In this document: piece by piece, positions 5,352-36,861 of the stretch
Layout: each line of letters starts with the position of its first letter
Position numbering within the stretch: the first letter of the stretch is position 1
DNA from: Streptomyces niveiscabiei
GTDB lineage: Bacteria > Actinomycetota > Actinomycetes > Streptomycetales > Streptomycetaceae
Direction of reading: 5' to 3'
Assembly: GCF_001419795.1 (NCBI RefSeq)
Contig: NZ_LIRL01000207.1
Location: forward strand, 1-38,672
Length of the DNA: 38,672 nt
Translations under genes and position numbers: made by a program
Notes under the pieces: model-generated
Told to the model about the DNA's origin: nothing
Database searches by the model: none
Seen by the model: the letters and a program-made list of their open reading frames with translations, nothing else

Positions 5352-6791
5352 GTGTCCACACAGCCCACCCCCCGCACCGTCACGGACCTCGTCGGCGAGC
5401 TGACCGCCGACCCCAACGCCCTCCTCAAGGCGTACGCCGCGAACACCGCCTTCCGCGCGGCCACGGCGGAGGAGCTCACCAACCCGCGCAACCCCTTCCG
5501 CCGCCCGGTCCGGCCGGACGACCTGGCCTGGCTGGACTACTCCCCCGTGCTGCCGGACGAGCGCCAGCTCCTGCTCAGCGGCCTCCTCGGCCACCGCATG
5601 CTGCGCAACGTCTACGACGCGGAGACGGCCGTCCTGCCGCCGCAGGCCGACCCGGCCGCCGCCGCGGACGGCGCGCACTTCCACTCCGCCGCGAACCGGC
5701 TGCTGGGCACGCTGGTGCGGCCGGTCCTGGAGAACCACCTCCTCGGCCATCTCGACGAGGGCCGCGAGGAGTTGCCCGCGCCCACCGCCGACGCGCTGAA
5801 GGCCGTGGTCCGGGAGTACGCCGAGCGCCGGGCCGCCGAGCCGTACAGCGCGTTCGCGACCGCCGCCGGGCGCAAGGACGCGAACAGCGCGGCCACCTTC
5901 CTGCTGATCCAGGCCGGCGTGTTCCTGCCTGCCGCGTACACCGCCATCGGCCGGGGCGCGCTCGCCGAGACCTCGCTCGCCCACCCCGGGCTGCGCGCCG
6001 AGCTCCAGGAGATCCGGCGGGGCTGGGTGGAGGCCGCCGAGCTCTACCGCAGCCTGTTCAGCGGCGCCGGACTGACCTGTTCGCCCGCCGCCTACTGGCA
6101 GTTCTCGCTCGGCACCTCGCTGGCGCGCGGCAACCACCTGCTGGGGCTGTCCCTGGCCGGTGACCGGCTGCCCGAACTCCTGGGCGCCGTCGCGCACTTC
6201 CTGATCGACCAGGCGGCGTGCGCACCGCACGCGCGCGACACCCTGCGCGGCGCGCTGAACCTGCGTGCCGCCTACTTCGACTCGGTCGCGCCGGTCGGCC
6301 CGCAGGGCACGGACGCTCTGGTGGACCGGCTCCTGGGGCCGCTGCCCGAGGTGTTCGGCGCGGACCAGGTCACCGCCTTCCACCGGGGGTTCGCCGACGC
6401 CGCCCGGTTCGCCGAGCGGTGGAACGCCGACCTCACGGCGCAGCTGGTGTGGGCCGACCGCATCGAGGACTACAAGACCGCCGCCGAGCGCATCCAGCAC
6501 AAGCTGGTCAGCGAGCGCATCGAGGTCGACCTCGACACGTTCGTGGAGAGCCACGAGGAGACCTCCACCACGCACGTCCACGACGAACACCGCCTGGTCA
6601 TGATCGAGAGCGGCCAGATGCACTTCTGGAACAACGTGACGCACCGGATCGCGCTCTCCGAGGGCGACAAGCTCCTCATCCCGACCTCCCGGCTGCACGG
6701 GTCCGTGGTCCTGTCCGGCACCTGCGTCTACCACCAGCCGATCATCCCCGAGGAAATGTTCCGGGAATTCGTCAGCGGAACGACCGAGTGA
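5352..6791 (+). CDS. SznF/GrbD-like N-N bond-forming cupin enzyme (diazeniumdiolate biosynthesis candidate)
   Basis: 479 residues, starting at GTG 5352 with GAAAGG ten bases upstream. Residues 1 to about 380 are mostly helical; the C-terminus is a cupin. Its putative metal ligands, His408 and His410 (THVHDEH) and His449 (RLHGS), have the spacing of the iron-binding cupin triad of SznF, the 471-residue N-nitroso-forming enzyme of streptozotocin biosynthesis. The length matches too. In SznF a central diiron domain hydroxylates the guanidine first; here I cannot find its HxxxDxxH motif (only His282/Asp286 fit), so this half may be degenerate. It is followed at 64 bases by a YqcI/YcgG-family gene, the same pair of families as GrbD/GrbE, which make graminine for gramibactin. 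Predicted role: N-N bond formation on a hydroxylated arginine-derived residue. Assignment is by motif and context, not alignment. Confidence 0.7.
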   Translation: MSTQPTPRTVTDLVGELTADPNALLKAYAANTAFRAATAEELTNPRNPFRRPVRPDDLAWLDYSPVLPDERQLLLSGLLGHRMLRNVYDAETAVLPPQADPAAAADGAHFHSAANRLLGTLVRPVLENHLLGHLDEGREELPAPTADALKAVVREYAERRAAEPYSAFATAAGRKDANSAATFLLIQAGVFLPAAYTAIGRGALAETSLAHPGLRAELQEIRRGWVEAAELYRSLFSGAGLTCSPAAYWQFSLGTSLARGNHLLGLSLAGDRLPELLGAVAHFLIDQAACAPHARDTLRGALNLRAAYFDSVAPVGPQGTDALVDRLLGPLPEVFGADQVTAFHRGFADAARFAERWNADLTAQLVWADRIEDYKTAAERIQHKLVSERIEVDLDTFVESHEETSTTHVHDEHRLVMIESGQMHFWNNVTHRIALSEGDKLLIPTSRLHGSVVLSGTCVYHQPIIPEEMFREFVSGTTE

Positions 6792-6855
6792 CCTGACCTT
6801 TTCTCCAGGCCCGATTCCCGGAACTTTTTTCACCAGAGCGGAGCCAGGCATCAGC

Positions 6856-7800
6856 ATGCCCGAAAACAGTGGACATACGAAAAGGAATCCGAGAAGAACC
6901 TCCCCTGCGGCCGTCACGATCGGCGAGACCCCGGAGTGGGGAGCGGCGAGCGCCGAGCGGTTCTTCGACTCCGTCCTGTCGGGGACCGACCTGTTCCCGT
7001 GCACCTTCGCCGTGGCCGCCGCCCGGAAGGGGACGCTGCGCCTCGGCTACGTCGACGGCACGGACCGCCCCGACGACTGGTCGAGCCTGCCTGACCTGCT
7101 GCGCCGGTACCTCGACGAGTACCGCTCGCTGGACCGGGAGACCTCCCTCGTGGTGCTGTTCCGGCCCGAGGACGAGCCGGCCTCCATGGACGTCTACCGG
7201 GAGCGGTTCTGGTCGGTCCTGCGCTACCTGGTGGCCAAGGACACCCAGCCCTGGCCCGCCGAGCTGCCCGCCGACCCCGACGACCTGATGTGGGAGTTCG
7301 CCTTCGGCGGCACGCCGATCTTCGTGGTCTGCAACACCCCGGTGCACAGCAGGCGGCGCAGCCGGCACGCCGACCAGTTCATGATCACCTTCCAGCCGCG
7401 CTGGGTCTTCGAGGGCCTGGAGGCCGACACCCCGCGCGGCGCCGCCGCCCGCCGCACGATCCGGGCCCGCCTGCGCCGGTACGACGCGGTCGCCCCCTCC
7501 CCGCACCTGGGGTCCTACGGCGACGAGGACAACCGGGAGTGGCGCCAGTACTTCCTGGACGACGACAACACGCCCTCGGCCCCCGACGAGCGCTGCCCCT
7601 TCCACGCGGGCCGCTCCGTCACCCGGGCCGCCCCGGCGCCGGCCCCCGGCTCCTGGAGCGTCGTCGTCAACGAGGCCGGCCGGTACTCGGTGTGGGAGAC
7701 GGGCCGTGACCTGCCGGCCGGCTGGCGGGCCACCGGCACCACCGGCACCCGGGACGGCTGCCTCGACCACATCGCCCAGGCCGGGCAGGGCCCCGCATGA
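6856..7800 (+). CDS. YqcI/YcgG-family (GrbE/DcsA-like) N-hydroxylase candidate fused to MbtH-like domain
   Basis: 314 residues. Residues about 30-250 show the YqcI/YcgG pattern: FPCTFA (47-52), YRERFW (114-119), WEFAFGGTP (146-154), FQPRWVFE (179-186), IRARLRRYD (202-210), YGDED and WRQYFLDDDN (229-238), and CPFH (247-250). Members include the arginine N-hydroxylase DcsA and GrbE of gramibactin biosynthesis. Residues about 266-310 look like an MbtH protein, the small partner of adenylation domains: VNEAGRYSVW (271-280), DLPAGW (285-290) and CLDHI (302-306). The last conserved Trp of MbtH is missing. The TGA overlaps the ATG of NRPS 1 by four bases, so the fused chaperone would be made next to its likely client. 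Predicted job: N-hydroxylation of arginine plus support of A domains. Fusion is seen; activity is inferred. Confidence 0.75.
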   Translation: MPENSGHTKRNPRRTSPAAVTIGETPEWGAASAERFFDSVLSGTDLFPCTFAVAAARKGTLRLGYVDGTDRPDDWSSLPDLLRRYLDEYRSLDRETSLVVLFRPEDEPASMDVYRERFWSVLRYLVAKDTQPWPAELPADPDDLMWEFAFGGTPIFVVCNTPVHSRRRSRHADQFMITFQPRWVFEGLEADTPRGAAARRTIRARLRRYDAVAPSPHLGSYGDEDNREWRQYFLDDDNTPSAPDERCPFHAGRSVTRAAPAPAPGSWSVVVNEAGRYSVWETGRDLPAGWRATGTTGTRDGCLDHIAQAGQGPA

Positions 7801-10800
7801 CCGCCGCCGACCCCCGCCACGAGCCCTTCCCCCTCACCGACACCCAGCGCGCCTACCTGCTGGGCCGGGGCAACGTCTTCGAACTCGGCAACGTGTCCAC
7901 GCACGCCTACTTCGAGTTCGAGGGCGACCTCGACACCGACCGGTTCGCGACCGCCTGGCGGCTGCTGGTCGAACGGCACGCCATGCTGCGCGCCGTCATC
8001 GACCCGCAGACCCTCACCCAGCGGGTGCTGCCGGACCTGCCGCCGTTCGTCCCCGACCTCGTCGACCTGCGCGACGCGGACCCCGCGCGCCAGGAACAGA
8101 CGCTGGCCGACCTGCGCGAGCGGCTCTCCCACGCGGTACGGCCGCCGGACCGCTGGCCGCTGTTCGGGGTGACGGTCGTGCGGCTGCGGCCGGACCTGGT
8201 GCGGGTGTTCATCGGCTTCGACGGCCTCGTCTGCGACTTCGCCAGCTGGCATGTGCTCTCCGGCGAGCTGTCGCGGCTCTACGAGGACCCGGACGCGCGG
8301 CTGCCCGAACTCACCACGGGCTTCCGCGAGTACGTCCTCGCGGCGGCGGCTGTGGAGGAGGGCGAGGAGTACCGCAAGGCGCAGGCGTACTGGCGGGAGC
8401 GGGTCGCCGCGCTGCCGCCCGCGCCGCGCCTGCCGATGGTCGCCGACCTCGCCTCCGTCGCCGTACCCCGGTTCACGCGCCACGAGGCGGTGCTGGAGGC
8501 CGGGGACTGGGCGGCGCTCAAGGAGCGGGCGGCGCGCGCCGGGCTGACCCCGTCCGCGCTGCTGCTCGCCGTGTTCGCGGAGATTCTCGCCGCGTGGAGC
8601 GAGCAGGCCCACTTCACGGTGAACGTGCCCCGGATGAACCGGCTGCCGCTGCACCAGCAGGTCGACCGGCTGGTGGGCGAGTTCGCCTCGTTCAGCCTGG
8701 TCGAGGTCGACCAGCGGGAAGCGGGCACGACCTTCACCGAGCGGGCCGCGCGCATCCAGCACCGGCTGTGGGAGGACCTCAGCCACCCCGAGGTGAGCGG
8801 CGCGTGGATGCTGCGCGAACTCGCCCGGGTGCGCGGCGGGATGGAGCACGCCCGGATGCCGGTGGTGCTCACCTCCACCCTCGCCTGGGCCGACCCCGAG
8901 GGCACCGCCCTGGACCGGACGTGGCGTCAGGTGTACGGCGTCTCGCAGACCCCGCAGGTCTGTCTCGACGTCCAGCTCGACGAACGGCAGGGGCGGCTCG
9001 TCCACAACTGGGACGTCGTCGAGGAACTGTTCCCGCCGGGCATGCCGGCCGCCATGTACGAGGCGTTCGGCGGGCTGCTGGAGCGGCTGCGGCACGACGA
9101 GACGGCCTGGACGGCGGTCGACCTCGACGTGCTGCCGCCCGCGCAGCGCGCCCGGCGCCTGGCCGTACGGGGGCGCGCCCGTCCGCTGCCGGAGGTGCCC
9201 GCGCACGCCGCGTTCGTCGAGCGGGCACGGCGCGAGCCCGGCGCGGTGGCCGTCGTCACCTCCTCGGCCACGCTGACGTACGGCGAACTGCTCGACGCGT
9301 CCAGCCGGCTGGGTGCCGCCCTCGCCGCGCGGGGCGCCGGGCGCGGCGACGTCGTCGCCGTCCTGATCGACAAGGGGTGGCAGCAGGCGGTCGCCGTGTA
9401 CGGGACACTGCTCGGCGGCGCCGCCTACCTGCCCCTCGACCCGGCCCAACCCCCCGCGCGGATACGGGAGTTGCTGGCGCGGACCGGGGTGCGCACGATC
9501 CTGGTCCGGGCCGGCGGCGAGGTGCCGGAGCTGCCGGAGGGGGTGACGGCCCTCGCCGTCGACGCCGAGTGGCCCGAGGCCGCGCCGCCCGCGCCCGACG
9601 AGCTGCTCCAGACGCCGGACGACCTGCTGTACGTCCTGTTCACGTCGGGGTCGACCGGGGTGCCCAAGGGGGTGATGACCGAGCACCGCGGCATGGTCAA
9701 CGCGCTGCGCGAGACCGTGGAGACGTTCGGCGTCGGCGAGCGGGACGTGGTCCTCGGGCTGACCGCGCTCCACCACGACATGGCCGCCTTCGACCTGCTC
9801 GGGGTGCTCGGCGCGGGCGGCACACTCGTCCTGCCGGACGCGGACGCGGTGCGCGACCCGGACCACTGGACGCGGCTGATGCGCGAGCACGGGGTCACCT
9901 TGTGGAACTCGGTGCCCGCGATGCTGGAGATGCTCCTCGACCACCCGGCGGCGCGGGAGGCGCTGGCCGGGCTGCGGCTCGCCTTCAGCGGCGGGGACTG
10001 GATACCGCCGGAGACGGCCCGCGCGCTGGCCGAACTCGCCCCGCACGCCCGACTGGTGAGCGTCGGCGGCCCCACCGAGACCACGCTGTGGAACATCTGG
10101 CACCCGGTGACCGGAGCCGACCTCGACCGGACGAGCATCCCGTACGGCAGGCCGATCGCGAACACCGTCTACCACCTGCTCGACGAGCGGCTCCGGGAGC
10201 GGCCGGACGGGGTGACCGGCGAGATGTACTGCGCGGGGCCCGGTCTCGCGCGCGGCTACTGGCAGGACCCCGAGCGCACGGCGGCCGTGTTCGTCCGCCA
10301 CCCGGTGACCGGCGAGCGCCTCTACCGCACCGGCGACCTGGGCCGCTATCTGCCCGACGGCACCCTGGAGTTCGCCGGCCGCGCCGACCTCCAGGTGAAG
10401 GTGCGCGGGCAGCGCGTCGAGCCGGGTGAGACGGAGGCGGCGCTCGCCGCGCACCCGGACGTGGACCGGGCGGTCGTGACCGGGGTTCCGATGCCCGGCC
10501 GCAACGGGGTGCGGGCGCTCGCCGCGCACGTACGGCTCAGGGCCGGTGCCGTGGCGGACGCCGAGGGCCTGCGGGGCTTCCTCGCCGCGCGGCTGCCCGG
10601 GCACCTGGTCCCGGCGGCGGTCGTCTTCGTGGACGACTTCCCGCTCACCCCGAACGGCAAGGTCGACCGGCCGCTGCTCGCGGCGTCCGTCCCCGAGCCG
10701 GGCGGCGCCCCCGCACCGGCGCGGCGCGACACGGCGGACTCGCCGCTGGAGCGGCTGCTCGCCGAGGAGTGGGCCCGGGTCCTCGGGGTCGACCGCGTCG

Positions 10801-11096
10801 GTCCCGACGAGGACTTCTTCGCCCTCGGCGGCGACTCGCTGCTGGGCGCCCGGCTGCTGACCCGGCTGCGCGGCGTCTTCGAGGGCGAACGCCTCACCGC
10901 CCGCGCCCTGTTCGGCACGCTCACCGTCACCGGCATGGCCGCCGCCCTGCGCGCGGAGGAGAGCGCGCCGGGCCGTCTCGACCTGGTGGCACGGCTGTTC
11001 ACGGACGTGGCGGCCCTGACGGACGACCAGGTGAACGCGGCCCTGGCCGACGGCCGGGACACCACCGTCCCCGTACCTCCGAAGGACAGGTCATGA
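7797..11096 (+). CDS. NRPS 1: heterocyclization-adenylation-PCP, predicted cysteine
   Basis: 1099 residues. The Cy domain (about 10-440) opens with FPLTDTQRAYLLGRG and carries DxxxxDxxS as Asp142, Asp147 and Ser150, plus PVVLTSTL and SQTPQVCLD, all typical of thiazoline/oxazoline-forming domains. The A domain (about 460-960) has FTSGSTGVPKG, GGPTETT and YRTGDLGRY. My hand-read ten-residue code is D-M-F-N-A-S-V-L-W-K, close to the known cysteine codes (D-L-Y/F-N-L-S-L-I-W-K). The carrier domain has GGDSL with Ser1014. No aryl carrier precedes the Cy domain; that missing part is fused to the salicylate synthase at 20333. Predicted reaction: condense salicyl-S-ArCP with Cys and cyclise to hydroxyphenyl-thiazoline. 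There is no epimerase or thiazoline reductase. Start ATG overlaps the upstream stop; the stop overlaps NRPS 2. Confidence 0.88.
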   Translation: MTAADPRHEPFPLTDTQRAYLLGRGNVFELGNVSTHAYFEFEGDLDTDRFATAWRLLVERHAMLRAVIDPQTLTQRVLPDLPPFVPDLVDLRDADPARQEQTLADLRERLSHAVRPPDRWPLFGVTVVRLRPDLVRVFIGFDGLVCDFASWHVLSGELSRLYEDPDARLPELTTGFREYVLAAAAVEEGEEYRKAQAYWRERVAALPPAPRLPMVADLASVAVPRFTRHEAVLEAGDWAALKERAARAGLTPSALLLAVFAEILAAWSEQAHFTVNVPRMNRLPLHQQVDRLVGEFASFSLVEVDQREAGTTFTERAARIQHRLWEDLSHPEVSGAWMLRELARVRGGMEHARMPVVLTSTLAWADPEGTALDRTWRQVYGVSQTPQVCLDVQLDERQGRLVHNWDVVEELFPPGMPAAMYEAFGGLLERLRHDETAWTAVDLDVLPPAQRARRLAVRGRARPLPEVPAHAAFVERARREPGAVAVVTSSATLTYGELLDASSRLGAALAARGAGRGDVVAVLIDKGWQQAVAVYGTLLGGAAYLPLDPAQPPARIRELLARTGVRTILVRAGGEVPELPEGVTALAVDAEWPEAAPPAPDELLQTPDDLLYVLFTSGSTGVPKGVMTEHRGMVNALRETVETFGVGERDVVLGLTALHHDMAAFDLLGVLGAGGTLVLPDADAVRDPDHWTRLMREHGVTLWNSVPAMLEMLLDHPAAREALAGLRLAFSGGDWIPPETARALAELAPHARLVSVGGPTETTLWNIWHPVTGADLDRTSIPYGRPIANTVYHLLDERLRERPDGVTGEMYCAGPGLARGYWQDPERTAAVFVRHPVTGERLYRTGDLGRYLPDGTLEFAGRADLQVKVRGQRVEPGETEAALAAHPDVDRAVVTGVPMPGRNGVRALAAHVRLRAGAVADAEGLRGFLAARLPGHLVPAAVVFVDDFPLTPNGKVDRPLLAASVPEPGGAPAPARRDTADSPLERLLAEEWARVLGVDRVGPDEDFFALGGDSLLGARLLTRLRGVFEGERLTARALFGTLTVTGMAAALRAEESAPGRLDLVARLFTDVAALTDDQVNAALADGRDTTVPVPPKDRS

Positions 11097-14000
11097 CCCC
11101 CGACCCGTACCACGACACCGCCCCGGCGGACCCCGACGAGGCCCGCCGACGGCTGCTGCGGGCGCTCCTCGCCCAGGAGAGCGCGGCGCCCGCCGAGAGC
11201 GCCGAGAGTGCGGCGGAGCGGACCGGCGTGCTGTCGGCCGCCCAGTACCGCATGTGGTTCCACCAGCACGCGCGCCCGGACAGCGCCGCCTACAACCTGG
11301 CGGTCGCCGCCCGCCTCGACGGCCCGCTGTCCGCCGAGGCCCTGCGGACGGCGTTCGCCGGGGTCGTCGAGCGGCACGAGATCCTGCGCACGGTCTACCG
11401 GACGGGCCCCGACGGCCTGCCGTCCCAGCACGTGCTCCCGGCCGCCGAACCGGTCATCGACATCGAGGACGTCGCGAACGCAGAGAACGCCGAGGCCGCC
11501 GCAGACACTCATGGCACCGGGGACGCCGCGGGCCTCGCTGACGCGGTGCGCTGGGCCGCCGAGGCCGCCGCCCTCCCCTTCGACCTCGCGGCGCAGACCC
11601 CGCTGCGGCTGCGCCTGTACCGCACGGGGCCCGACCGCCACCTCCTGCTCGTCGTCCTGCACCACATCGCCTGCGACGACCTCAGCTGGGACCCCCTGTT
11701 CGGCGACGTGAGCGCCGGCTACCGGAACGCGACCTGTACCCCGGCGATCCCGCCCGCGCCGCTGCCGCTCCAGTACGGCGAGCACGCGGCCCGGGAGCGT
11801 CCCGCGCCGGAGGCCGACCTCGCCTACTGGCGGGAGCGCCTCACCCCACCCCCGCCGCCGGCCGCGCCGCTGCCGGACCTGCCCCGGCCCGCGACGGCGG
11901 GCGAGGCCGGCGCCCGGGTGGCGCACCCGCTCGCGCCGGGTGTCCACGAGCGGCTCACGGCGCTCGCCCGCACCGCCTCGGTGACCCCCTTCATGGCGCT
12001 GCTGGCCGGGTATCTGACGCTGCTGCACCGGTACACGGGACAGAGCGACCTCTGCGTCGCCACCCCGGTCGTGCACCGGGAGGCCCCCGGTGTGCGCGAC
12101 CTGGTCGGGAACTTCGGCAACAGCGTGGTGCTGCGCGTCGACCTGTCCGGGAACCCGAGCTTCCGGGACCTGCTGGGCCGGGTGCGCGCCGAGTGCCTGG
12201 CCACCTACGCGCACCAGGGCGTGCCGTTCGACCGGGTCGTGGAGGCCGTGCGGCCGTACCGGGGGGCGGGGCGCAGTCCGCTGGCCGACACCATGTTCTC
12301 CGCGCGCACCGGCCCCCTCGACGGCCTCGACCTGCCCGGTGTCTCGGTCACGGAGGTCGCGGTGCCGGGCGGCACGGCGCGCTTCGACCTCGCCGTCGAG
12401 GCCGTCGCGACCGGCGCGGGGACCGAACTCGGCGCCACCTACCGCACCGAGCTGTACACCGAGGCCACGGTGGCCCGGCTCCTGGAGCACCTCGGGCGGC
12501 TGCTGGGCGGCGCCGTGGACGCGCCCGACACCCCGGTGGCCGACCTGCCGATGCTCTCCGAGGCGCAGTGGCGGCAGATCGTGCGGGACTGGAACGCCAC
12601 CGACCGGCCCGGCCTGCTGACCCCGGACACCTTGCACGGCCTGTTCGAGGCGCGGGTGCGCAGCGCGCCGGACGACGAGGCCCTCGTCGACGGCGACGAC
12701 CGGTGGACGTACCGGCGGCTGGACGCGGCGGCCGGTCGGCTGGCCCGGCGGCTGGCGGGCGCCGGCGCGGGTCCCGGCCGGCTCGTCGGGGTGCATCTGG
12801 AGCGTTCGGCGGGGCTGGTGGTGGGGATGCTGGCGGCCCTGAAGACGGGTGCGGCGTTCGTCCCGCTGGAGCCGGCCTGGCCGGCGCGCCGGGTCGAGGA
12901 GGTCGTCGCCGACGCGTCCCCGGCCGCCGTGCTCTCCCGGGACGCGGACCGCTGGGGCGACGTCCCGGTGTTCGACCCGGACGAGCCGGACGGGGAAGCC
13001 GGGCCGGACGAGGACGGGTTCGCGTCCGTGCACCGGCCCGGCGGCCTCGCGTACGTCATCTACACCTCGGGGTCCACGGGCCGCCCCAAGGGCGCCATGA
13101 TCACCCACGCGGGCATCCGCAACCGGCTGCCCTGGCAGTCGGAGCTGCTCGGCCTCGCGCCCGGCGACGGCGTGCTGCACAAGGCGCCGCTCGGCTTCGA
13201 CATCTCCGTCAACGAGATCTTCCTGCCGCTGAGCTGCGGGGCGCGTCTGGTGCTCGCGCCGCCCGGCGCCGACAAGGACCCGGACGCCCTGATCGCGGTG
13301 ACGGCGAAGGAGCGGGTGGCCTTCGTGTACGTCACCTCCACCATGCTCGACGCGATGCTGGAGCGCCCCGGCATCGCGGCCGTCGCGCCGGGCCTGCGCC
13401 ATGTGTGGTGCGGCGGGGAGGTCCTCACCCCGGAGCTGTTCGCCCGGTTCCGTGAGCGGCTGCCGCACAGCACGATGTACCACGGCTACGGACCGGCCGA
13501 GGCGACCATCGGCGTCAGCTGCGAGGTCTACCGGGGGGAGAGCCGGCGCACCGGGGTCACGATCGGCCGCCCGAACCCCAACACCCGGCTGTACGTGCTC
13601 GGTCCGGGCCTGCGTCCGGTGCCGCCCGGGGTGCCCGGGGAGATCCACGTCGGCGGCGTCCAGGTGGCCGACGGCTACCTCGGCGACCTGCGGCGCACCG
13701 CGGACCGGTTCGTACCGGACCCGTTCGGCGACGTGCCCGGTGCCCGGCTGTACGCCACCGGGGACCTGGGACGGCTGCGGCCCGACGGCGTGATCGAGTT
13801 CCTGGGGCGTGCCGACCGGCAGATCAAGATCCGGGGCCACCGGGTCGAGCTGGAGGAGGTCGAGTCGGTTCTCGCCCGCCATCCCGAGGTGCGCCAGGCG
13901 GTGGTGCTGCTGCGGGAGGACACGCCGGGCACGGGGCATCTGGCCGCGTACTGCCTGGCCCGCTCGGACGCTGCGGCGCCCGCCGAGGACGCGGTGCGCG

Positions 14001-14518
14001 CCTTCGCCGCCGAGCGGCTCCCCGAGTACGCGGTGCCGCAGTCCGTGCAGGTGCTGCCGGAGCTGCCGCTGATGCCGTCGGGCAAGGTGGACCGGGCGGC
14101 GCTGGCCGCGCTGCCGGCCCGGGTCCCGGTCAGCGCGCCCTACCTCGACCCCCGGGACGGTCTGGAGCGTGCCGTGGCCCGGGTGTGGGCCGAGGTGCTG
14201 GGCGTGCCGCAGGTCGGCGCCCGCGACAACTTCTTCGACCTGGGCGGCCATTCGCTGCTCACCCTGCGCGTCCAGGCCGCCCTGGAGCGCGAGCTCGGCC
14301 GCCGGGTCAGCGTCGTCGACCTGTTCGCCCATCCGACCGTGGCGGACCTGGCCCGGCTCCTCGACGACCGGGAGCGGGCCGCCTCGGCGGACGGCGCCCC
14401 GGCCCCGGACGAGGCGGGGGCGCGGGTCGAGCGGCGGCGGGCGGTGCGGGACCGGGCCGCCGCCCGCAGGACCACCACCACCGGTACCGGCCCACAGCGA
14501 GGAGCGCCGCGCACATGA
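11093..14518 (+). CDS. NRPS 2: condensation-adenylation-PCP, predicted N5-oxygenated ornithine-like residue
   Basis: 1141 residues from the ATG that overlaps the NRPS 1 stop. The C domain (about 40-470) has SAAQYRMW and LHHIACDD, with His190-His191 and Asp195 in the HHxxxD active site (the usual Gly after Asp is Asp). The A domain (about 500-1010) has YTSGSTGRPKG, YGPAEAT and YATGDLGR. My hand-read code is D-I-N-Y-W-G-G-I-G-K, which I recall as the N5-formyl-N5-hydroxyornithine code of coelichelin and pyoverdine synthetases. No ornithine hydroxylase or formyltransferase is in the window, while the GrbD/GrbE-like pair is, so graminine or a related N-oxygenated residue is the likelier substrate (inference). 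The PCP has GGHSL with Ser1054. The tail is charged, and the stop overlaps the PKS start by four bases. Confidence 0.88.
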   Translation: MTPDPYHDTAPADPDEARRRLLRALLAQESAAPAESAESAAERTGVLSAAQYRMWFHQHARPDSAAYNLAVAARLDGPLSAEALRTAFAGVVERHEILRTVYRTGPDGLPSQHVLPAAEPVIDIEDVANAENAEAAADTHGTGDAAGLADAVRWAAEAAALPFDLAAQTPLRLRLYRTGPDRHLLLVVLHHIACDDLSWDPLFGDVSAGYRNATCTPAIPPAPLPLQYGEHAARERPAPEADLAYWRERLTPPPPPAAPLPDLPRPATAGEAGARVAHPLAPGVHERLTALARTASVTPFMALLAGYLTLLHRYTGQSDLCVATPVVHREAPGVRDLVGNFGNSVVLRVDLSGNPSFRDLLGRVRAECLATYAHQGVPFDRVVEAVRPYRGAGRSPLADTMFSARTGPLDGLDLPGVSVTEVAVPGGTARFDLAVEAVATGAGTELGATYRTELYTEATVARLLEHLGRLLGGAVDAPDTPVADLPMLSEAQWRQIVRDWNATDRPGLLTPDTLHGLFEARVRSAPDDEALVDGDDRWTYRRLDAAAGRLARRLAGAGAGPGRLVGVHLERSAGLVVGMLAALKTGAAFVPLEPAWPARRVEEVVADASPAAVLSRDADRWGDVPVFDPDEPDGEAGPDEDGFASVHRPGGLAYVIYTSGSTGRPKGAMITHAGIRNRLPWQSELLGLAPGDGVLHKAPLGFDISVNEIFLPLSCGARLVLAPPGADKDPDALIAVTAKERVAFVYVTSTMLDAMLERPGIAAVAPGLRHVWCGGEVLTPELFARFRERLPHSTMYHGYGPAEATIGVSCEVYRGESRRTGVTIGRPNPNTRLYVLGPGLRPVPPGVPGEIHVGGVQVADGYLGDLRRTADRFVPDPFGDVPGARLYATGDLGRLRPDGVIEFLGRADRQIKIRGHRVELEEVESVLARHPEVRQAVVLLREDTPGTGHLAAYCLARSDAAAPAEDAVRAFAAERLPEYAVPQSVQVLPELPLMPSGKVDRAALAALPARVPVSAPYLDPRDGLERAVARVWAEVLGVPQVGARDNFFDLGGHSLLTLRVQAALERELGRRVSVVDLFAHPTVADLARLLDDRERAASADGAPAPDEAGARVERRRAVRDRAAARRTTTTGTGPQRGAPRT

Positions 14519-17500
14519 GTGATCCGTATGCGTCCGACCCGCAGCACGACCCCGAGTTCAGTGTCGCGGTCGTCGGTCTCGCCGCCCGGTTCCCGGGGGC
14601 TCCGACGGCGGAGGCGTTCTGGGCGAACCTGGTGGCCGGCCGGGACAGTCTGACCGTCCTCGACGACGCGGACTACCTCGCCGCCGGCGGGGACGCCGCG
14701 CTCCTCGACGATCCGTACCACGTCCGGGTGGTGCGCGAGATCGAGGGCGCCGACCGGTTCGACGCCGCGTACTTCGGCTACGGGCCGACCGAGGCCGCGC
14801 TCCTGGACCCGCAGCAGCGGGTGTTCCTGGAGGTCGCCCACCACGCCTTCGAGGACAGCGGGTACGTGCCCGCGCGGTGCCCGGGCCCGGTCGGTGTGTA
14901 CGCGGGGGCGGGGGTGAGCCGCTACTACGCGCAGAACCTGGCGCCCTGGTACGCGGGCGTGCCGGGCTCCCTGGACCAGATGGCGGCGCTGTCCGGGAAC
15001 TCGCCGGGCACCCTGCCCACCCGCGTCTCCTACCTGCTGGGGCTGACCGGGCCCAGCGTCAGCGTGCAGACCGCCTGCTCGACCTCGCTCGTCGCGGTCC
15101 ACCTGGCCTGCCAGGACCTGCTGGCCCACCGCTGCGACCTGGCGCTGGCCGGGGGCGTGGCGCTCAACCCGCAGGCCCGGCTGGGCTACCGGTACGTGCA
15201 GGACGGGCCGTACTCGCCCGACGGCCGGGTGCGGGCGTTCGACGCGGGCGCCGCCGGGATGAGCGCGGGGGACGGCGCCGGGGCCGTCGTCCTCAAGCGC
15301 CTCCCGGACGCGCTGGCCGACGGCGACACGATCCGGGCGGTGATCCGGGGCACCGCCGTCAACAACGACGGCGACCGCAAGGTCGGCTTCAGCGCGCCCA
15401 GCGCGGCGGGCCAGACCGAGGTGATCGTGGCCGCGCTGGCGGAGGCCGGCCTGGACGCCGGGAGCATCGGGTACGTCGAGGCGCACGGCACCGGCACCCC
15501 GGTCGGCGACCCCGTCGAACTGACGGCGCTGCGCGACGCGTTCGAGCGGGCCGGCGGGCATCCCGGCGGGTGCCTCGTCGGCTCGGTGAAGACCAACGTC
15601 GGCCATCTGGACGCCGCCGCCGGTGTCGCGGGGCTGATCAAGGCCGTCCTCGCGCTGGAGCACGGGGTGGTCCCGGCGAGCCTGCACCACGACACGCCGA
15701 GCCCGCTCTTCGACTGGTCCGGCGCGCCCTTCGTGCCGGCCGCCGAGGCGGGGCCCTGGCGGGTGCCGGGCATCCGGCGGGCCGCCGTCAGCTCCTTCGG
15801 CATCGGCGGCACGAACGCGCACGCCGTCCTCGAACAGGCCCCGGCACCCGAGGCGCGACCGACCGGCGCAGACGCCGATGCCGACACCGACGCGGCGACC
15901 CTGTGGGTGCTGTCCGCGCGCACCCCGGCCGCCCTCGACGCGGTGGCCCACCGCCTCGCCGACCACCTCGACGCGCACCCGGACCTCGACCCGCAGGACG
16001 TCGCCCACACCCTCGCCGCCGGACGCGCGGCGCACCCGCTGCGCCGGGCCGTCGTCGTACGGGAGCCGGGGCGGGCCGCCGAGGAGCTGCGGACCCCGCC
16101 GCGTACGGCGCCGCGTCCGGCGCAGGAGCGGCCGGTGGCGCTGCTGCTGCCGGGCGGGGGTGTCCACTACGACGGCATGGGCGCCGGCCTGTACGCGCGG
16201 GAGCCGGTCTTCCGGGACGTCGTCGACGAGTGCGCCCGCATCCTGCGGCCCGTGCTCGGCCACGACCTGCGGACCGCGCTGTACGGCACGGGCGAGCGGC
16301 GGGCCGCCGCCGCGCCCGGGGAGCACACCGCCCGTCTCGACGGGGTCTCCACGGGCCTGCGGCCTGCGGCGTTCCCGGCGCTGGTGGCCACCGAGTACGC
16401 GCTGGCGCGGCTGCTGGAGAGCCACGGCCTGCCGCCGGTGGCGCTGCTCGGGCACAGCCTCGGCGAGTACACGGCGGCCTGTCTCGCCGGGGTCCTCGAC
16501 CTGGCGGACGTCCTGCCGCTGGTCGCGGAGCGGGAGCGGCTGTTCGGTGCCGTCGGCGGTGTCGCGCTCAGCGTCCGGCTGTCGCGGGACGCCCTCGCCC
16601 CGCTGCTCGGCCCGGACACGGCGATCGCGGCCGTCAACTCGGGCGAGGCGTGCACGGTGTCCGGCACCACGGAGGCGATCGTCGCGCTGGAGAGCCGGCT
16701 CGCCGAGGCGGGCGCCGACCACCACCGGCTGCGCGTCCCGTCGGCGGTGCACACCCCGCTGCTGGACCCGGTGCTCGACGAGTACCGGGCGCTGGTCGCG
16801 GGGCTGTCGCTGAAGCCGCCGTCCGTGCCGTACGTCTCCAACGTGACGGGCACCTGGATCACCGCCGAGCAGGCCACCGACCCCGGCTACTGGGTCCGGC
16901 ACAGCCGCGAGACCGTGCGGTTCGCCGACGCGCTGGAGACCCTCGGCGCGGCCGATCCGGCCCCCCTGCTGGTGGAAGCGGGTCCGGGCGGCGGCCTCGG
17001 CAAGCTGGCCCGGCAGGTGCTGGGCCCGGACGCGCCCGTGGTGCCGGCGCTGCGGCACGCGTACGCGGAGCAGAGCGACGAGGTGTTCCTGCTGGAGGCG
17101 CTGGGCGCGCTGTGGTGCCACGGCGCCGACGCCGCCGCCGGGGCCTGGCGGCTCACCGGGCGCCGTACCCGCCGTCCCCGGCCGGTGCCGCTGCCCGGGT
17201 ACCCCTTCGAGCGGGCCCGGCACTGGATCGACCCGCCGCCGCGCGGCGAGGCCCCGGCGGGCGGGCCGGTGCCGGCCGCCGACCCGGACCGTGCCGTACC
17301 CGCCGAAGGGACCTCGGCCGGTCGCGTCCCGCAGAGCGACGGGCCGCTCGGGGAGGTCGTCGCGCTGTGGGAACGCGCCCTCGGTGTCCAGGGCATCGCC
17401 CCCGACGACAACTTCTTCGACCTGGGCGGCGACTCGCTGCTCCTGATGCGCCTCACCGCCCAGGTCCGGGACCTGCTGGGGGCCGAGCTGTCGGTGCGGC

Positions 17501-17574
17501 AGCTCTATCTCGCCCAGCGGCTGACCCCGGCCGGTTTCCTCGCCCAGGCCGCCTCGGCTAACTCCCCCTCCTGA
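14515..17574 (+). CDS. Type I PKS: ketosynthase-acyltransferase-ACP
   Basis: 1019 residues from the ATG overlapping the NRPS 2 stop. The KS (about 14-445) has the full triad: Cys188 (TACSTS), His324 (EAHGTGT) and His364 (NVGHLD); its sequence is of the kind found in NRPS/PKS hybrids. The AT (about 540-830) has GHSLGEY with Ser648, the malonyl-type form, but SAVH (743-746) where malonyl domains normally have HAFH. The C-terminal carrier has LGGDSL with Ser974. No reductive domains, methyltransferase or thioesterase are present. It should add a malonyl unit to the NRPS 2 product and leave a beta-keto thioester. It is the last assembly-line gene in the operon, so the way the chain leaves is open: spontaneous cyclisation to a tetramate-like ring, the type II thioesterase, or another enzyme. 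Confidence 0.92.
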   Translation: MSDPYASDPQHDPEFSVAVVGLAARFPGAPTAEAFWANLVAGRDSLTVLDDADYLAAGGDAALLDDPYHVRVVREIEGADRFDAAYFGYGPTEAALLDPQQRVFLEVAHHAFEDSGYVPARCPGPVGVYAGAGVSRYYAQNLAPWYAGVPGSLDQMAALSGNSPGTLPTRVSYLLGLTGPSVSVQTACSTSLVAVHLACQDLLAHRCDLALAGGVALNPQARLGYRYVQDGPYSPDGRVRAFDAGAAGMSAGDGAGAVVLKRLPDALADGDTIRAVIRGTAVNNDGDRKVGFSAPSAAGQTEVIVAALAEAGLDAGSIGYVEAHGTGTPVGDPVELTALRDAFERAGGHPGGCLVGSVKTNVGHLDAAAGVAGLIKAVLALEHGVVPASLHHDTPSPLFDWSGAPFVPAAEAGPWRVPGIRRAAVSSFGIGGTNAHAVLEQAPAPEARPTGADADADTDAATLWVLSARTPAALDAVAHRLADHLDAHPDLDPQDVAHTLAAGRAAHPLRRAVVVREPGRAAEELRTPPRTAPRPAQERPVALLLPGGGVHYDGMGAGLYAREPVFRDVVDECARILRPVLGHDLRTALYGTGERRAAAAPGEHTARLDGVSTGLRPAAFPALVATEYALARLLESHGLPPVALLGHSLGEYTAACLAGVLDLADVLPLVAERERLFGAVGGVALSVRLSRDALAPLLGPDTAIAAVNSGEACTVSGTTEAIVALESRLAEAGADHHRLRVPSAVHTPLLDPVLDEYRALVAGLSLKPPSVPYVSNVTGTWITAEQATDPGYWVRHSRETVRFADALETLGAADPAPLLVEAGPGGGLGKLARQVLGPDAPVVPALRHAYAEQSDEVFLLEALGALWCHGADAAAGAWRLTGRRTRRPRPVPLPGYPFERARHWIDPPPRGEAPAGGPVPAADPDRAVPAEGTSAGRVPQSDGPLGEVVALWERALGVQGIAPDDNFFDLGGDSLLLMRLTAQVRDLLGAELSVRQLYLAQRLTPAGFLAQAASANSPS

Positions 17575-17612
17575 CACACCGCGCGGTGTGTCCCGAACGA
17601 ACAGGAACCACG

Positions 17613-18632
17613 ATGTCCGACTCCCGTTCCGCTCTCCCGCCCCGGCTGCGCCTCATCGAGGTCGTCTCGGCCGGCTGGATCTCCGCCGCCGTCTCGGCGC
17701 TCGCCGAACTCGGCATCGCCGACCATCTCGACACCCCGCGCACCGCCGCCGACCTGGCCGCGCGGGCCGGCGCCGACGCGGACGGCCTCAGCCGCTTCCT
17801 GTACGCCGCTGCGGCGGCCGGTGTCCTCGACGCGCACCCGGACGGCACGTTCTCGCTGACCGAGGTGGGCGAGGTGCTGCGCACCGGCCACCCGGAGGGG
17901 ATGCGGGAGATGTGCCGGCTGACCGGCATGGAGGAGTTCGCGCGGGCCTGGGCGAAGGCCGCGCACACCGCGCGCACCGGGGAGCCCGCCTTCGACGCCG
18001 CGTACGGCAGGCCGCTGTTCGCGCACATGTCGGACCCCGACCACGCCGACTTCTCCGGGGTGTTCCACCGCGCGATGGCCGAGTCCGCCGCCGGGCGCTC
18101 GGTCGGGTCGCGGTACGCGTTCCCCGAGGGCGCGCGGGTCGTCGACATCGGCGGCGGCCGGGGCGCCATGATCGCGGGCCTGCTGACCGCGCACCCGCAT
18201 CTGACGGGCACGGTGTTCGACCTGCCCAACGCGGTGCGGGGCGCGGACAAGCTGCTCGCGGACGCCGGGGTCGCGGGCCGGGCCACGGTGGTGGCGGGCA
18301 GCTTCTTCGACGAGGTCCCGGCCGGCGGCGACGTGTACCTGCTGTCGCGGGTCATCGGGAACTGGAACGACGAGGACTCCGTGCGCATCCTGCGGCGGGT
18401 GCGGGCGGCCATGCACCCCGGGTCCCGGCTCGTCGTCGTCGGCCACATGCCGACCGACGAGGACCGCACCCACTACGTGCGCGCCCTGGACCTGTACATG
18501 TTCGTGCTGCTCCAGGCGCGGCTGCGGACCCCCGAGCAGTACCGGGAGCTGTTCGCGCGGGCCGATCTCGAACTGTCCTCCAGCGATCTGCGGCCCGACG
18601 AGGAGTGCGTGATCGAGGCCCGCCCGGTCTGA
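17613..18632 (+). CDS. O-methyltransferase-fold protein lacking the usual catalytic histidine
   Basis: 339 residues of the plant-COMT-like family (N-terminal winged-helix dimerisation domain, C-terminal Rossmann fold). The SAM-binding loop VVDIGGGRG is at about 176-184, and FDLPNAV (202-208) and VAGSFFDEVPAG (about 227-238) follow as usual. At the family's LHDWxDE site, which supplies the general-base His, the sequence is VIGNWNDED: Gly249 stands in for His. It may therefore use another base, methylate an acidic group that needs none, or do a non-methyl reaction as some relatives do. The ATG at 17613 has an AGGA upstream; a GTG nine codons earlier is less likely. It lies 38 bases after the PKS in the same operon. 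A methylated enol or phenol on the product is one possibility. Confidence 0.8.
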   Translation: MSDSRSALPPRLRLIEVVSAGWISAAVSALAELGIADHLDTPRTAADLAARAGADADGLSRFLYAAAAAGVLDAHPDGTFSLTEVGEVLRTGHPEGMREMCRLTGMEEFARAWAKAAHTARTGEPAFDAAYGRPLFAHMSDPDHADFSGVFHRAMAESAAGRSVGSRYAFPEGARVVDIGGGRGAMIAGLLTAHPHLTGTVFDLPNAVRGADKLLADAGVAGRATVVAGSFFDEVPAGGDVYLLSRVIGNWNDEDSVRILRRVRAAMHPGSRLVVVGHMPTDEDRTHYVRALDLYMFVLLQARLRTPEQYRELFARADLELSSSDLRPDEECVIEARPV

Positions 18633-18678
18633 TCCACCGCCCCCTCGCCCCTCCCTCGCCACCCCGGAAAGGACTCCC

Positions 18679-20295
18679 ATGCAGGACGGCTTCGTTCCCT
18701 GGCCCGGCCCGTCGGCCGAGCGGTACCGGAAGGAGGGTTACTGGCGGGGCGAGCCCCTGGGACGGCTGCTGCGGGTGGCGGCCGGGCGGCACGGGCCGCG
18801 CACCGCGCTGGCCGACTCCCGTACCCGGCTCACCTTCGCCGGTCTCGACACGGGCGCCGACCGGATCGCGTCCGGCCTGGCCCTGGCGGGTGTGCGGCCC
18901 GGCGACCGGGTGCTCGTGCAACTGCCCAACCGGACCGAGTTCGGGGTGCTGCTGTTCGCGCTGCTGCGGCTCGGCGCGCTGCCGGTGCTCGCGCTGCCCG
19001 GGCACCGGATCAGCGAGCTGCGGCACCTGTGCGACCTGGCGGAGGCGGTCGCGTACGTCACCGCCGCCGAACTGGAGGGCGAGGACCACCGGCCCACCGC
19101 GCGCGCCCTCCTGGAGCAGTGCCGGTCGCTGCGGCACGCGGTGATCGTCGGTGAGGCCGACGACAGCGGGCTGACCACGCCGTACGCGGCCCTGGACCGG
19201 GAGCCGGTGGAGCTGGCCGAGCCCGATCCGGCGGGGCCCGCGCTGCTGCTGCTGTCCGGGGGGTCCACCGGGCTGCCCAAGCTGATCCCGCGCACGCACG
19301 ACGACTACGCCTACAACGCGCGCACCATGGCCGCCGTCTGTGAACTCACCGCCGACGACGTCCACTTGGTGGTCCTGCCCATCGGGCACAACTTCCCGCT
19401 GGCGTGCCCGGGGCTGCTGGGCGCGATCGGGGCGGGTGCGGCGACGGTGCTCGCCGAGAACGCCAGCCCGCCCGAGGTGTTCCCGCTGATCGAACGGGAG
19501 CGGGTGACGGTCACCGCGCTGGTGCCGCCGCTGGCCGCGCTGTGGTCGCGGGCCGTGGAGTGGGACGCCTCCGACCTCTCCAGCCTGCGGCTGGTACAGG
19601 TGGGCGGCGCCCGGCTCCCGGAGGAGACCGCGCGGCTGCTGCCGAAGGCGCTGGACTGCCGGCTCCAGCAGGTGTTCGGCATGGCGGAGGGGCTGCTGTG
19701 CGCGACCCGGCTCGACGACCCCGAGGAGGTCGTGGCGACCACCCAGGGCCGTCCCGTCTCCCCCGCCGACGAGATCCGCGTCCTCGCCGAGGACGGCACC
19801 GACGCCGGGGACGCGCCGGGCGAACTCCTCACCCGCGGCCCCTACACGCTGCGCGGCTACTACCGGGCCCCGGAGCACAACGCCCGCGCTTTCACCCCCG
19901 ACGGCTTCTACCGCTCCGGTGACCTGGTCCGGCGCACCCCGGACGGCGGCCTCACCGTCGTGGGCCGGGTGAAGGAGCAGATCAACCGGGCCGGCGAGAA
20001 GGTCTCCCCCGAGGAGGTGGAGCAGCATCTGCTGGCCCATCCGGCGATCGCCCAGGCGGTGGTCGTCGGCGTGCCCGACGCCGTGCTCGGCGAGCGTGTC
20101 TGCGCCTGCCTGCTGCTCGCCCCGGACGCCGCCGCGCCCGGCCCCGACGTCGCGTCGCTCGGCGCGTTCCTGCGGGAGCGCGGGCTCGCCGCCTTCAAGT
20201 GGCCGCAGCAGGTGGAGACGGTCGCGTCGTGGCCGCTCACCGGCGTCGGGAAGATCGACCGCCGGGCGCTGACCGCGCTCGCGGCGGACCGCTGA
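18679..20295 (+). CDS. Salicyl-AMP ligase (aryl-adenylating enzyme)
   Basis: 538 residues, ATG with GGAAAGGA six bases upstream. It belongs to the DhbE/EntE/YbtE/MbtA family, which activates an aryl acid with ATP and loads it on an aryl carrier. The P-loop is LSGGSTGLPK; GYYRAPEHN, YRSGDLV and the C-terminal TGVGKIDRR with the catalytic Lys are present. The substrate pocket reads salicylate rather than 2,3-dihydroxybenzoate: HNFPLACPG has Phe and Cys where dihydroxybenzoate enzymes have Tyr and Ser, and FGMAEGLLCATRLDD carries the Leu-Cys pair of salicylate enzymes. This agrees with the salicylate synthase directly downstream (37-base gap), whose fused carrier is the probable acceptor. Operon position and pocket both support iron-chelator synthesis. 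Confidence 0.93.
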   Translation: MQDGFVPWPGPSAERYRKEGYWRGEPLGRLLRVAAGRHGPRTALADSRTRLTFAGLDTGADRIASGLALAGVRPGDRVLVQLPNRTEFGVLLFALLRLGALPVLALPGHRISELRHLCDLAEAVAYVTAAELEGEDHRPTARALLEQCRSLRHAVIVGEADDSGLTTPYAALDREPVELAEPDPAGPALLLLSGGSTGLPKLIPRTHDDYAYNARTMAAVCELTADDVHLVVLPIGHNFPLACPGLLGAIGAGAATVLAENASPPEVFPLIERERVTVTALVPPLAALWSRAVEWDASDLSSLRLVQVGGARLPEETARLLPKALDCRLQQVFGMAEGLLCATRLDDPEEVVATTQGRPVSPADEIRVLAEDGTDAGDAPGELLTRGPYTLRGYYRAPEHNARAFTPDGFYRSGDLVRRTPDGGLTVVGRVKEQINRAGEKVSPEEVEQHLLAHPAIAQAVVVGVPDAVLGERVCACLLLAPDAAAPGPDVASLGAFLRERGLAAFKWPQQVETVASWPLTGVGKIDRRALTALAADR

Positions 20296-20332
20296 CCCGT
20301 TCCAACACCCCCCACTGGCAAGGGAGTTCCCG

Positions 20333-21970
20333 TTGTCCTCCGTCACACCCACCCCCTCTGTCCGTTCCGCCTCCTACGACCTGCTGCGTCCGCCCCTGTC
20401 GGGCGACCCGATGGCCGCCGCCGTGCGCGTGGCCCGCCTGGCCCACCACGAGCCGTACGTCCTGTACGAGCGCCGGGGTGTCTGGTCGCTCGCCCTGGGG
20501 GTGGTCGCCGAGGTGACCGTCACCCCCTCGCTCGTGCGTCTGTCGGGGCCGGGCGGTGAGCGCACGGCCGCCTGGCAGGGGCATCCCGGCGACACCGTGC
20601 GGGAGCTGCTGGCGGAGCTGCCCGTCGAGGACTGGCGCGCGTACGGCACGGCGGCCTTCGAGCTGTCCTTCTGCGGCACCCCCGCGCTGGCCGACCTCCC
20701 GCCGGACACCGCGCTGCTGCGCCTGGTGGTGCCGCACACCGAGATCCGCATCGAGGCGGGCTCGGCGACGGTGCGGGCCCTGGACCTCGCGCAGCCGCTG
20801 ACCCGGTCCGCCGTGGCCGCGCTGGCCGCGGCGGACCCGGCGGCCGGGGCGGCACCGGCGCTGGTCGGCGTCGACGTGGAGCGCGACGAGAGCGACCTCT
20901 ACCGCAAGGCGGTCGCGGGCGCCGTGCGGGAGATCCAGGACAGCGCGCTGCGCAAGGTGATCCTCTCCCGGGTGGTGCGGGTGCCGGAGCCGGTCGACCT
21001 GGTCGCGACCTACACGCACGGCCGGGCGCGCAACACCCCGGCGCGCTCCTTCCTGCTGCACCTCGGCGGGGAGCGCGCGGCCGGGTTCAGCCCGGAGATC
21101 GTGCTGTCCGTCGAGGCGGACGGCCGGGTGCGGACCCAGCCGCTGGCCGGCACCCGCGCCCTGACCGGCTCCCCGGGCGAGGACCGCAGACTGCGCGAGG
21201 AACTGCTCCAGGACCCGAAGGAGGTGTACGAGCACGCCGTGAGCGTCCGTACGTCCTTCGACGAACTGGAGGAGATCTGCGTGCCCGGCTCGATCCGGGT
21301 CTCGGAGTACCTGACCGTCAAGGAGCGCGGCACGGCCCAGCACCTGGCCTCCGACCTGTACGGGCGGCTCGCCCCGGGCCGCGACTGCTGGGCGGCGCTG
21401 GCCGCGCTGTTCCCGGCGGTGACGGCCTCCGGCATCCCCAAGCCCGAGGCGTACGACGCGATCCGCCGCCTGGAGTCGGAGCCGCGCGGCCTGTACGGGG
21501 GCGCGGTCCTCACGGTCGGGCAGGACGGCACGCTGGACGCGGCGCTGGTGCTGCGGTCGGTGTACCAGCGCGAGGACCGGACCTGGCTGCGGGCCGGTGC
21601 GGGGATCGTCGGGCAGTCGACGCCGGAGCGGGAGTTCACCGAGACGTGCGAGAAGCTGCGCAGCGTCTCCCTCAGCGTGGTGTCGGCCGGTGCGGTGCCG
21701 GGCGATGCTGTGCCGGATGGTGCGGTGCCGGGCGGGTCCCGGCTCACCGTCGAGGTCATGCGCCGGGACATCGCCGAGACCCTGCGCCGCCCGGGCACCG
21801 AGATCGACCCCGAGGAGAGTCTGCTGGTCCAGGGCCTGGACTCGGTGGGGATGATGACGCTGGTGAGCAAGTGGAGCGCGTACGGCGTACGGCTGCGGCT
21901 CGCCGATCTCGCGCGGGCGCCCCGGCTCGGCGCATGGGCGGAGCTGGTGCGGGACGCCTCGGCGGACTGA
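20333..21970 (+). CDS. Salicylate synthase fused to C-terminal aryl carrier protein
   Basis: 545 residues from a TTG at 20333 (GGGAG six bases upstream). Residues 1 to about 455 are a chorismate-using salicylate synthase of the MbtI/Irp9 type: ALRKVILSR with the general-base Lys, PLAGTRA, DPKEVYEHA, GTAQHLAS with the catalytic His, PAVTASGIPK, GLYGGAV, RAGAGIV, and STPEREFTETCEKL with the magnesium-binding glutamates. After a Gly/Pro/Val linker, residues about 465-545 form a carrier domain: LLVQGLDSVGMM, with Ser504 as the phosphopantetheine site in the GLDSV form of aryl carriers such as EntB and DhbB. In the better-known systems the carrier is on an isochorismatase or on the NRPS itself. 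This fills the gap left by NRPS 1, which has none. It is the last gene of the operon. Confidence 0.9.
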   Translation: MSSVTPTPSVRSASYDLLRPPLSGDPMAAAVRVARLAHHEPYVLYERRGVWSLALGVVAEVTVTPSLVRLSGPGGERTAAWQGHPGDTVRELLAELPVEDWRAYGTAAFELSFCGTPALADLPPDTALLRLVVPHTEIRIEAGSATVRALDLAQPLTRSAVAALAAADPAAGAAPALVGVDVERDESDLYRKAVAGAVREIQDSALRKVILSRVVRVPEPVDLVATYTHGRARNTPARSFLLHLGGERAAGFSPEIVLSVEADGRVRTQPLAGTRALTGSPGEDRRLREELLQDPKEVYEHAVSVRTSFDELEEICVPGSIRVSEYLTVKERGTAQHLASDLYGRLAPGRDCWAALAALFPAVTASGIPKPEAYDAIRRLESEPRGLYGGAVLTVGQDGTLDAALVLRSVYQREDRTWLRAGAGIVGQSTPEREFTETCEKLRSVSLSVVSAGAVPGDAVPDGAVPGGSRLTVEVMRRDIAETLRRPGTEIDPEESLLVQGLDSVGMMTLVSKWSAYGVRLRLADLARAPRLGAWAELVRDASAD

Positions 21971-36857: not shown

Positions 36858-36861
36858 CGGG

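Follow-up and report, generated by a model that had tools for sequence, protein, structure and literature searches.

Why should a YqcI/YcgG enzyme of Streptomyces niveiscabiei continue, within one polypeptide, into an MbtH-like domain? The original prediction, made from the DNA letters alone, held that tying the chaperone of an adenylation (A) domain to the enzyme that makes an unusual amino acid could couple supply and use. The window (the whole stretch of DNA analysed, 38,672 nucleotides) is an entire contig, C578 (NZ_LIRL01000207.1), of a 9.5-Mb draft genome in 1456 contigs. The fused gene and its parts are arranged as follows:

6856–7800, + strand: fused coding sequence, putative YqcI/YcgG heme N-oxygenase plus MbtH-like domain; ATG at 6856, stop ending at 7800, 314 residues
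6967–7605, + strand: YqcI/YcgG core, residues 38–250, with the presumed heme-ligand Cys49 in an FPC motif and its C-terminal end at CPFH
7606–7644, + strand: linker, residues 251–263, mostly of low model confidence
7648–7776, + strand: MbtH-like domain, residues 265–307, beta-beta-beta-alpha, by Pfam match and predicted fold
7777–7797, + strand: trimmed end, residues 308–314, in place of the W-x-D-x-R-P tail kept by most relatives
7797–7800, + strand: ATGA overlap between the stop of the fusion gene and the start of the NRPS1 gene

This open reading frame is a complete YqcI/YcgG enzyme followed by a real MbtH-like domain. The core had been predicted to end at CPFH, near residue 250, with an MbtH pattern behind it, and profile searches bear this out; the given coordinates of the open reading frame are exact. 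Pfam YqcI_YcgG (PF08892) matched residues 38–250 (E 8.7e-73; 245 bits against a cut-off of 27; profile positions 2–211 of 211) and Pfam MbtH (PF03621) matched residues 265–307 (E 5e-15; 55.1 bits against a cut-off of 27; profile positions 10–52 of 53); the tail searched alone scored 59 bits against the latter. The NCBIfam GntA model matched the fusion protein weakly, below its cut-off (53 against 145 bits), and a defence-system library gave no match to it. When modelled with AlphaFold2 from a 38-row alignment, the fusion gave a mean pLDDT of 88.9, with a well-predicted core, pLDDT below 50 at linker residues 252–258, and a tail made of strands 267–272, 277–281 and 290–297 and a helix at 299–309. 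Modelled apart, the tail took the same fold, helix included (mean pLDDT 78, core blocks 86–91). A Foldseek search with the whole model paired the core with AglA (9ub3; E 2.4e-20, TM-score 0.85 by target) and, in the same search, the tail with the MbtH proteins 2pst (E 2.5e-4, rmsd 0.9 over 44 columns), 5u89_B and 5ja2_B; a fold unlike MbtH, the outcome that would have spoken against the prediction, did not appear. The PDB sequence search agreed, matching the tail to 2lpd, 9up2, PA2412 and others and the core to AglA. Cys49 of the FPC motif was invariant in alignment A1 and at least 90% conserved in A2 and A3, where the partial row L073 lacks that stretch; we equate it with the axial cysteine (C44 of AglA, C47 of ChmN) by position rather than by alignment to ChmN.

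Could the tail merely stabilise the oxygenase or its dimer? Nothing speaks for this directly, beyond enzyme and tail forming one chain. The linker is poorly ordered and of free length (6–44 aa across the fusions), and relatives without the tail exist, which together make a structural role of the tail in the core unlikely; we give this explanation very little credence.

The fused gene stands in a run of genes on the same strand:

5352–6791, + strand: SznF/ChmM-like protein; most metal ligands of the oxygenase (HDO) domain are missing, those histidines of the cupin are present
7797–11096, + strand: NRPS1, C-A-T; A-domain code DMFNFGVLW, C domain judged Cy-like
11093–14518, + strand: NRPS2, C-A-T; A-domain code DINYWGGI, likely graminine module
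14515–17574 (start approximate), + strand: PKS, KS-AT-ACP
17586–18632, + strand: O-methyltransferase, in a ChmQ-like position
18679–20295, + strand: aryl-AMP ligase of the DHB/salicylate type
20333–21970, + strand: chorismate-binding enzyme (salicylate/isochorismate synthase type) with a carrier domain

Beyond 21970 lie an ABC exporter, a siderophore-interacting protein and an MFS transporter. From 5352 to 21970 the cluster looks like a version of chm whose starter is of the salicylate type, and its product may be a graminine-containing salicylate analogue of the chalkophomycin type. The gene order is the same in S. triticagri, Thermocatellispora and S. uncialis over the DNA compared. At the cluster edge (1700–2860) is a 386-aa protein resembling cobalamin-independent methionine synthase (PF01717); in two other loci, L050 and L051, a PF01717 protein lies ~8 kb upstream of the start of the fusion cluster, on the other strand. 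A separate, second PKS locus occupies 30225–38672, where one protein of 2210 aa holds nitronate-monooxygenase-like, KS, AT, ACP and KR parts and is followed by a further KS protein cut by the contig end.

The product of 5352–6791 aligns to SznF (6m9r, E 1.9e-34). Reading this alignment with what we take to be the SznF ligand numbering, five of the six HDO ligands are replaced or gapped (E189, H225, H311, D315, H318) and E215 is kept. Such a dead HDO fits the published account of ChmM, in which ChmM and all but one of its NRPS/PKS-linked homologues share this defect. The N-oxygenation should then come from another enzyme, as has been demonstrated for ChmN (PMC11177257). According to the same account, ChmN is a thiolate-heme enzyme that hydroxylates arginine twice, and no activity has yet been obtained with purified ChmM. 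Given a chalkophomycin-like cluster in which the fusion stands beside a SznF-like protein with a dead HDO, NRPSs and a hydroxyornithine-type code, the enzyme is probably of the ChmN/GrbE kind, and by analogy with homologues such as ChmN (PMC11177257) the core probably binds heme and acts on arginine. That the enzyme helps to make an unusual amino acid probably holds, in the form of a step in the graminine pathway.

Is the arrangement peculiar to this contig? From the 318 relatives that a scan of a genome collection returned, the 80 best were taken forward; with the window this gave 81 loci for comparison, and all counts of loci below refer to this set. Thirty-one are graminine-type loci, namely 29 with a SznF-like gene in the locus plus two on short contigs (L067, L073) with the SznF-like gene elsewhere in the genome. 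The search for the same two-domain order, which had been proposed as a check, found it in 16 of the 31 (the window, L050–L056, L065, L067, L068, L071–L073, L075 and L095), and both Pfam domains are present in all 16 proteins. A separate mbtH lies beside the YqcI or SznF-like gene in six more (L057, L059, L061–L064). In the remaining nine the DNA compared held neither. On follow-up, a stand-alone mbtH was located ~12, 31 and 10 kb from the SznF-like gene in L058, L074 and L077, respectively, and ~29 kb away in L076, while the L060 locus ends at a contig edge. None was found near the cluster in L066, L070 and L080, and none of the 150 of 162 first-look candidates scored in the L069 genome (Amycolatopsis acidicola, with a graminine-type cluster) matched the MbtH family; the A domains of these four clusters suggest that an mbtH may not always be needed nearby. 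The other 50 loci, not of the graminine type, had no mbtH in the DNA compared. Overall, a fusion or mbtH in the DNA compared accompanied 20/29 loci with a SznF-like gene against 2/52 others (Fisher p 4e-10, only indicative as the loci are related), and those two are fusions on short contigs whose genomes carry a SznF-like gene elsewhere. Proteobacterial loci were sampled through plasmids only, with 3 of 48 matching records examined.

The YqcI-MbtH fusion is nevertheless rare overall: matches over most of both domains came from two genomes among 392 of the window's genus group, one of them being its own, and among 396 genomes from the phylum from its own alone. As the genome is a draft in so many contigs, a sequencing or assembly artefact, or a chance resemblance, might be suspected. 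At least 15 other loci, from several actinobacterial families, carry the same fusion; they rule out both, which we regard as next to inconceivable, and with them the notion of a single odd case.

The prediction that the cluster lacks a stand-alone mbtH was borne out, in that a profile search found no other MbtH domain on the window's contig; seven further MbtH domains lie elsewhere in the genome. One of the seven, on contig C917 (L007), is joined N-terminally to an A domain, as in SlgN1; ObiF1 is a similar case. Two Frankiaceae clusters (L071 and L095) contain, besides the fused copy, a stand-alone mbtH at a distance of ~28 kb; simple replacement of the stand-alone gene by the fusion does not fit them and was dropped as a general rule. 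On one contig stretch, of Frankia torreyi (C91, L132–L133), the classical stand-alone mbtH and the fused one stand ~28 kb apart, with NRPS domains between them. In Pseudofrankia sp. BMG5.36 (L076, 9899–11098) the YqcI core runs into an A-domain piece in one open frame at the place where the sister locus L071 has its MbtH domain, as if a deletion had joined them.

Which A domain would the tail serve? A-domain codes were read by alignment, and DINYWGGI of NRPS2 is of a type which we take to be that of N5-hydroxyornithine, chemically close to graminine. A DINYWGGI or DVNYWGGI A domain occurs in the DNA compared of 21/31 graminine-type loci, and one of the DINYWGGI type lies downstream on the same strand in 12 of the 16 fused loci; for L053, L054 and L056 the DNA compared downstream of the fusion matched neither an NRPS A domain nor an NRPS1-type C domain, and the L073 locus ends at a contig edge. 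The A domain of NRPS1 (~9210–10680) has an unusual code, DMFNFGVLW, beside a Cy-like condensation domain, a combination common to L050–L052 and one domain of L055. Both codes of the window differ from the published graminine code, DVHRTGLVAK (PMC10391617). The code of ChmO is also unlike that of the proteobacterial graminine NRPSs (PMC11177257), and DVHRTGLVAK therefore does not define graminine clusters in actinobacteria. The DINYWGGI code and its recurrence make NRPS2 the likeliest graminine module and partner of the MbtH-like domain. When the MbtH-facing regions were compared with solved complexes, NRPS1 and NRPS2 scored alike against FscH (102.6 and 99.3 bits, respectively), so this comparison does not separate them.

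We then take the following to be the function, and hold it with moderate confidence: the fusion would be a bifunctional protein of a graminine-type metallophore cluster, in which an arginine N-oxygenase of the ChmN/GrbE kind is tethered to an A domain through its MbtH-like part. The first 250 residues would act as a thiolate-heme enzyme that converts arginine into N-delta,N-omega-dihydroxyarginine, which the SznF-like cupin enzyme (5352–6791) would rearrange into graminine. The last 50 residues would bind an A domain of the cluster, most likely the DINYWGGI domain of NRPS2, and so do the work that a separate mbtH does in sister clusters; the tether would also bring the oxygenase to the assembly line. 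The two domains, the predicted fold, the gene context, the recurrence and the conservation are observed, whereas A-domain binding, the choice of A domain and any gain from the tether are inferred. Supply and use would be coupled in a weaker sense than was proposed: the step supplied may well be arginine N-hydroxylation, by homology, but it is not adjacent to use, as the SznF-like step comes between them.

A different weighting would put the tether first: the MbtH domain would chiefly dock the N-oxygenase, with its partner, on the NRPS, and unstable hydroxylated or N-nitroso intermediates would be passed on locally, perhaps bound to the NRPS. In Tistrella an enzyme of the same kind leads directly into the beginning of an NRPS in one chain, and mbtH is a separate gene nearby, which would be a second way of attachment (PMC10391617; NC_017966.1); in that record the frame stays open from YqcI through several A-type domains, with the separate mbtH upstream. 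The domain adjoining YqcI there, however, looks like a loading AMP ligase, not a graminine A domain. The two Frankiaceae clusters with both kinds of MbtH agree with docking, and the instability of dihydroxyarginine does so too, as it decomposed within a week at room temperature (figure legend in PMC11177257). Since the ChmO code is unlike those of the proteobacterial graminine NRPSs, the same paper suggests that the N-N bond might form while the substrate is bound to an NRPS. Against this, synthetic free graminine rescued both grb mutants of P. graminis, from which it follows that the NRPS takes the free amino acid there (PMC6771848). Moreover, the SznF-like enzyme that would act in between is itself untethered, and 15/31 loci have a YqcI enzyme that lacks the MbtH fusion. 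We consider docking as the chief role unlikely, though worth keeping in mind. Similarly speculative is a bolder form, that MbtH, once a free chaperone, now works as a docking module by which the oxygenase is seated on the A domain, with the graminine N-N bond formed at or on the assembly line and the trimmed copy of the window kept for docking alone.

How trimmed this copy is can be judged from the motif VxxNxExQxSLWP-x5-PxGW-x12-L-x6-WTDxRPxSL, reported for more than 85% of 133 MbtH-like proteins (PMC7593251). The window keeps 8 of its 19 positions, the other 15 fusions 10–17 and six separate mbtH genes 16–17. It lacks the WTDxRPxSL part and retains the Asn, both core Trp, the Ser, P-x-G-W and the Leu; across the 22 MbtH sequences of such clusters the Asn, both core Trp, an Arg, a Cys and a Leu are invariant. 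The final conserved Trp, the third, had been noted as absent and the domain as perhaps trimmed; indeed it is missing from the window's copy alone among the 22, and by a count on the sequences the gene ends 24 nt earlier, in frame, than in the close relatives L050 and L051. With the final Trp and the RP tail lost, this copy is the most worn of the fusions compared.

Is it then a decaying leftover, with other MbtH proteins of the genome serving the cluster? The low motif count, the missing Trp and the shortened end point that way, and the seven MbtH domains encoded elsewhere could act in trans. Yet the core Trps, the Asn, the Ser and the predicted fold are kept, and the gene has no frameshift or internal stop. 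Its stop/start overlap with the NRPS1 gene is intact, ATGA being found also in L050 and L051 and GTGA in L052. Identity in the MbtH part is 32/45 residues with L051 and 24/45 with L050, against 6/13 and 3/13 in the linker. We find a mere remnant improbable, somewhat more so than a tether-first role, and continue to favour the tethered, A-domain-binding domain.

The family as a whole fits a free linker and a domain under selection: averaged over all pairs of the 16 fusions, sequence identity is 62% for the core and 49% for the MbtH part, against 21% for the linker. In a tree of YqcI cores (42 rows) the group that holds the window also contains S. triticagri, Thermocatellispora and S. uncialis, each with the fusion, while the fused pair L053/L054 groups with L057, L063 and L064, in which mbtH follows directly after the YqcI gene (support 86/92). 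The fused label requires six changes on this tree, at least three of them forced by well-supported branches, numbers to be read with the long branches of L055 and L080 and the ambiguity of gain and loss in mind. A single origin of the fusion is thus unsupported. The MbtH tree, built on few columns, did not settle the origin.

The YqcI-MbtH arrangement is already in print: where Hermenau 2019 (PMC6771848) describes how candidates were selected in genome mining, half a sentence notes GrbE homologues that are joined to MbtH-like proteins or to NRPSs. The relevant sections of that paper give no proteins, boundaries, residues, phylogeny or function for the fusions, and the clusters described are from Burkholderiaceae; we found no test of the fusion's role in the openly accessible main-text literature consulted. 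In its nomenclature GrbD is the SznF-like protein and GrbE the hydroxylase, which a table in PMC11085572 apparently reverses. The fusion gives a concrete way into a published question, by what route and at what place dihydroxyarginine is turned into graminine and loaded (PMC11177257). As nature provides fused, neighbouring but separate, and unlinked forms in a single family, the roles of chaperone and tether could be told apart cleanly, and the fusion can serve as a marker for finding actinobacterial graminine-type clusters.

Among known systems, chalkophomycin is the closest (PMC11177257, PMC11085572). There too a YqcI/YcgG arginine N-oxygenase, ChmN, stands beside a SznF-like enzyme with a dead HDO, and the order of NRPS, PKS and O-methyltransferase is close to that of the window. 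ChmN is listed with 264 aa against 314 aa for the fusion, and "MbtH" is absent from the main text of both papers; the starter is an N-hydroxypyrrole, whereas that of the window would be a salicylate-type acid. AglA (PDB 9ub3 and others; PMC12866846) shares the fold of the first 250 residues and presumably the heme-binding Cys, but has no match to the MbtH part and acts in argolaphos biosynthesis. MobF of tistrellabactin is likewise an arginine hydroxylase joined to the assembly line, although by direct fusion to the NRPS, with MbtH as a separate gene (PMC10391617; NC_017966.1). SlgN1, as tabulated in PMC11253843, also has an MbtH domain in one chain with another activity; there it sits in cis to its A domain, while in the window it rides on what is probably a precursor-making enzyme.
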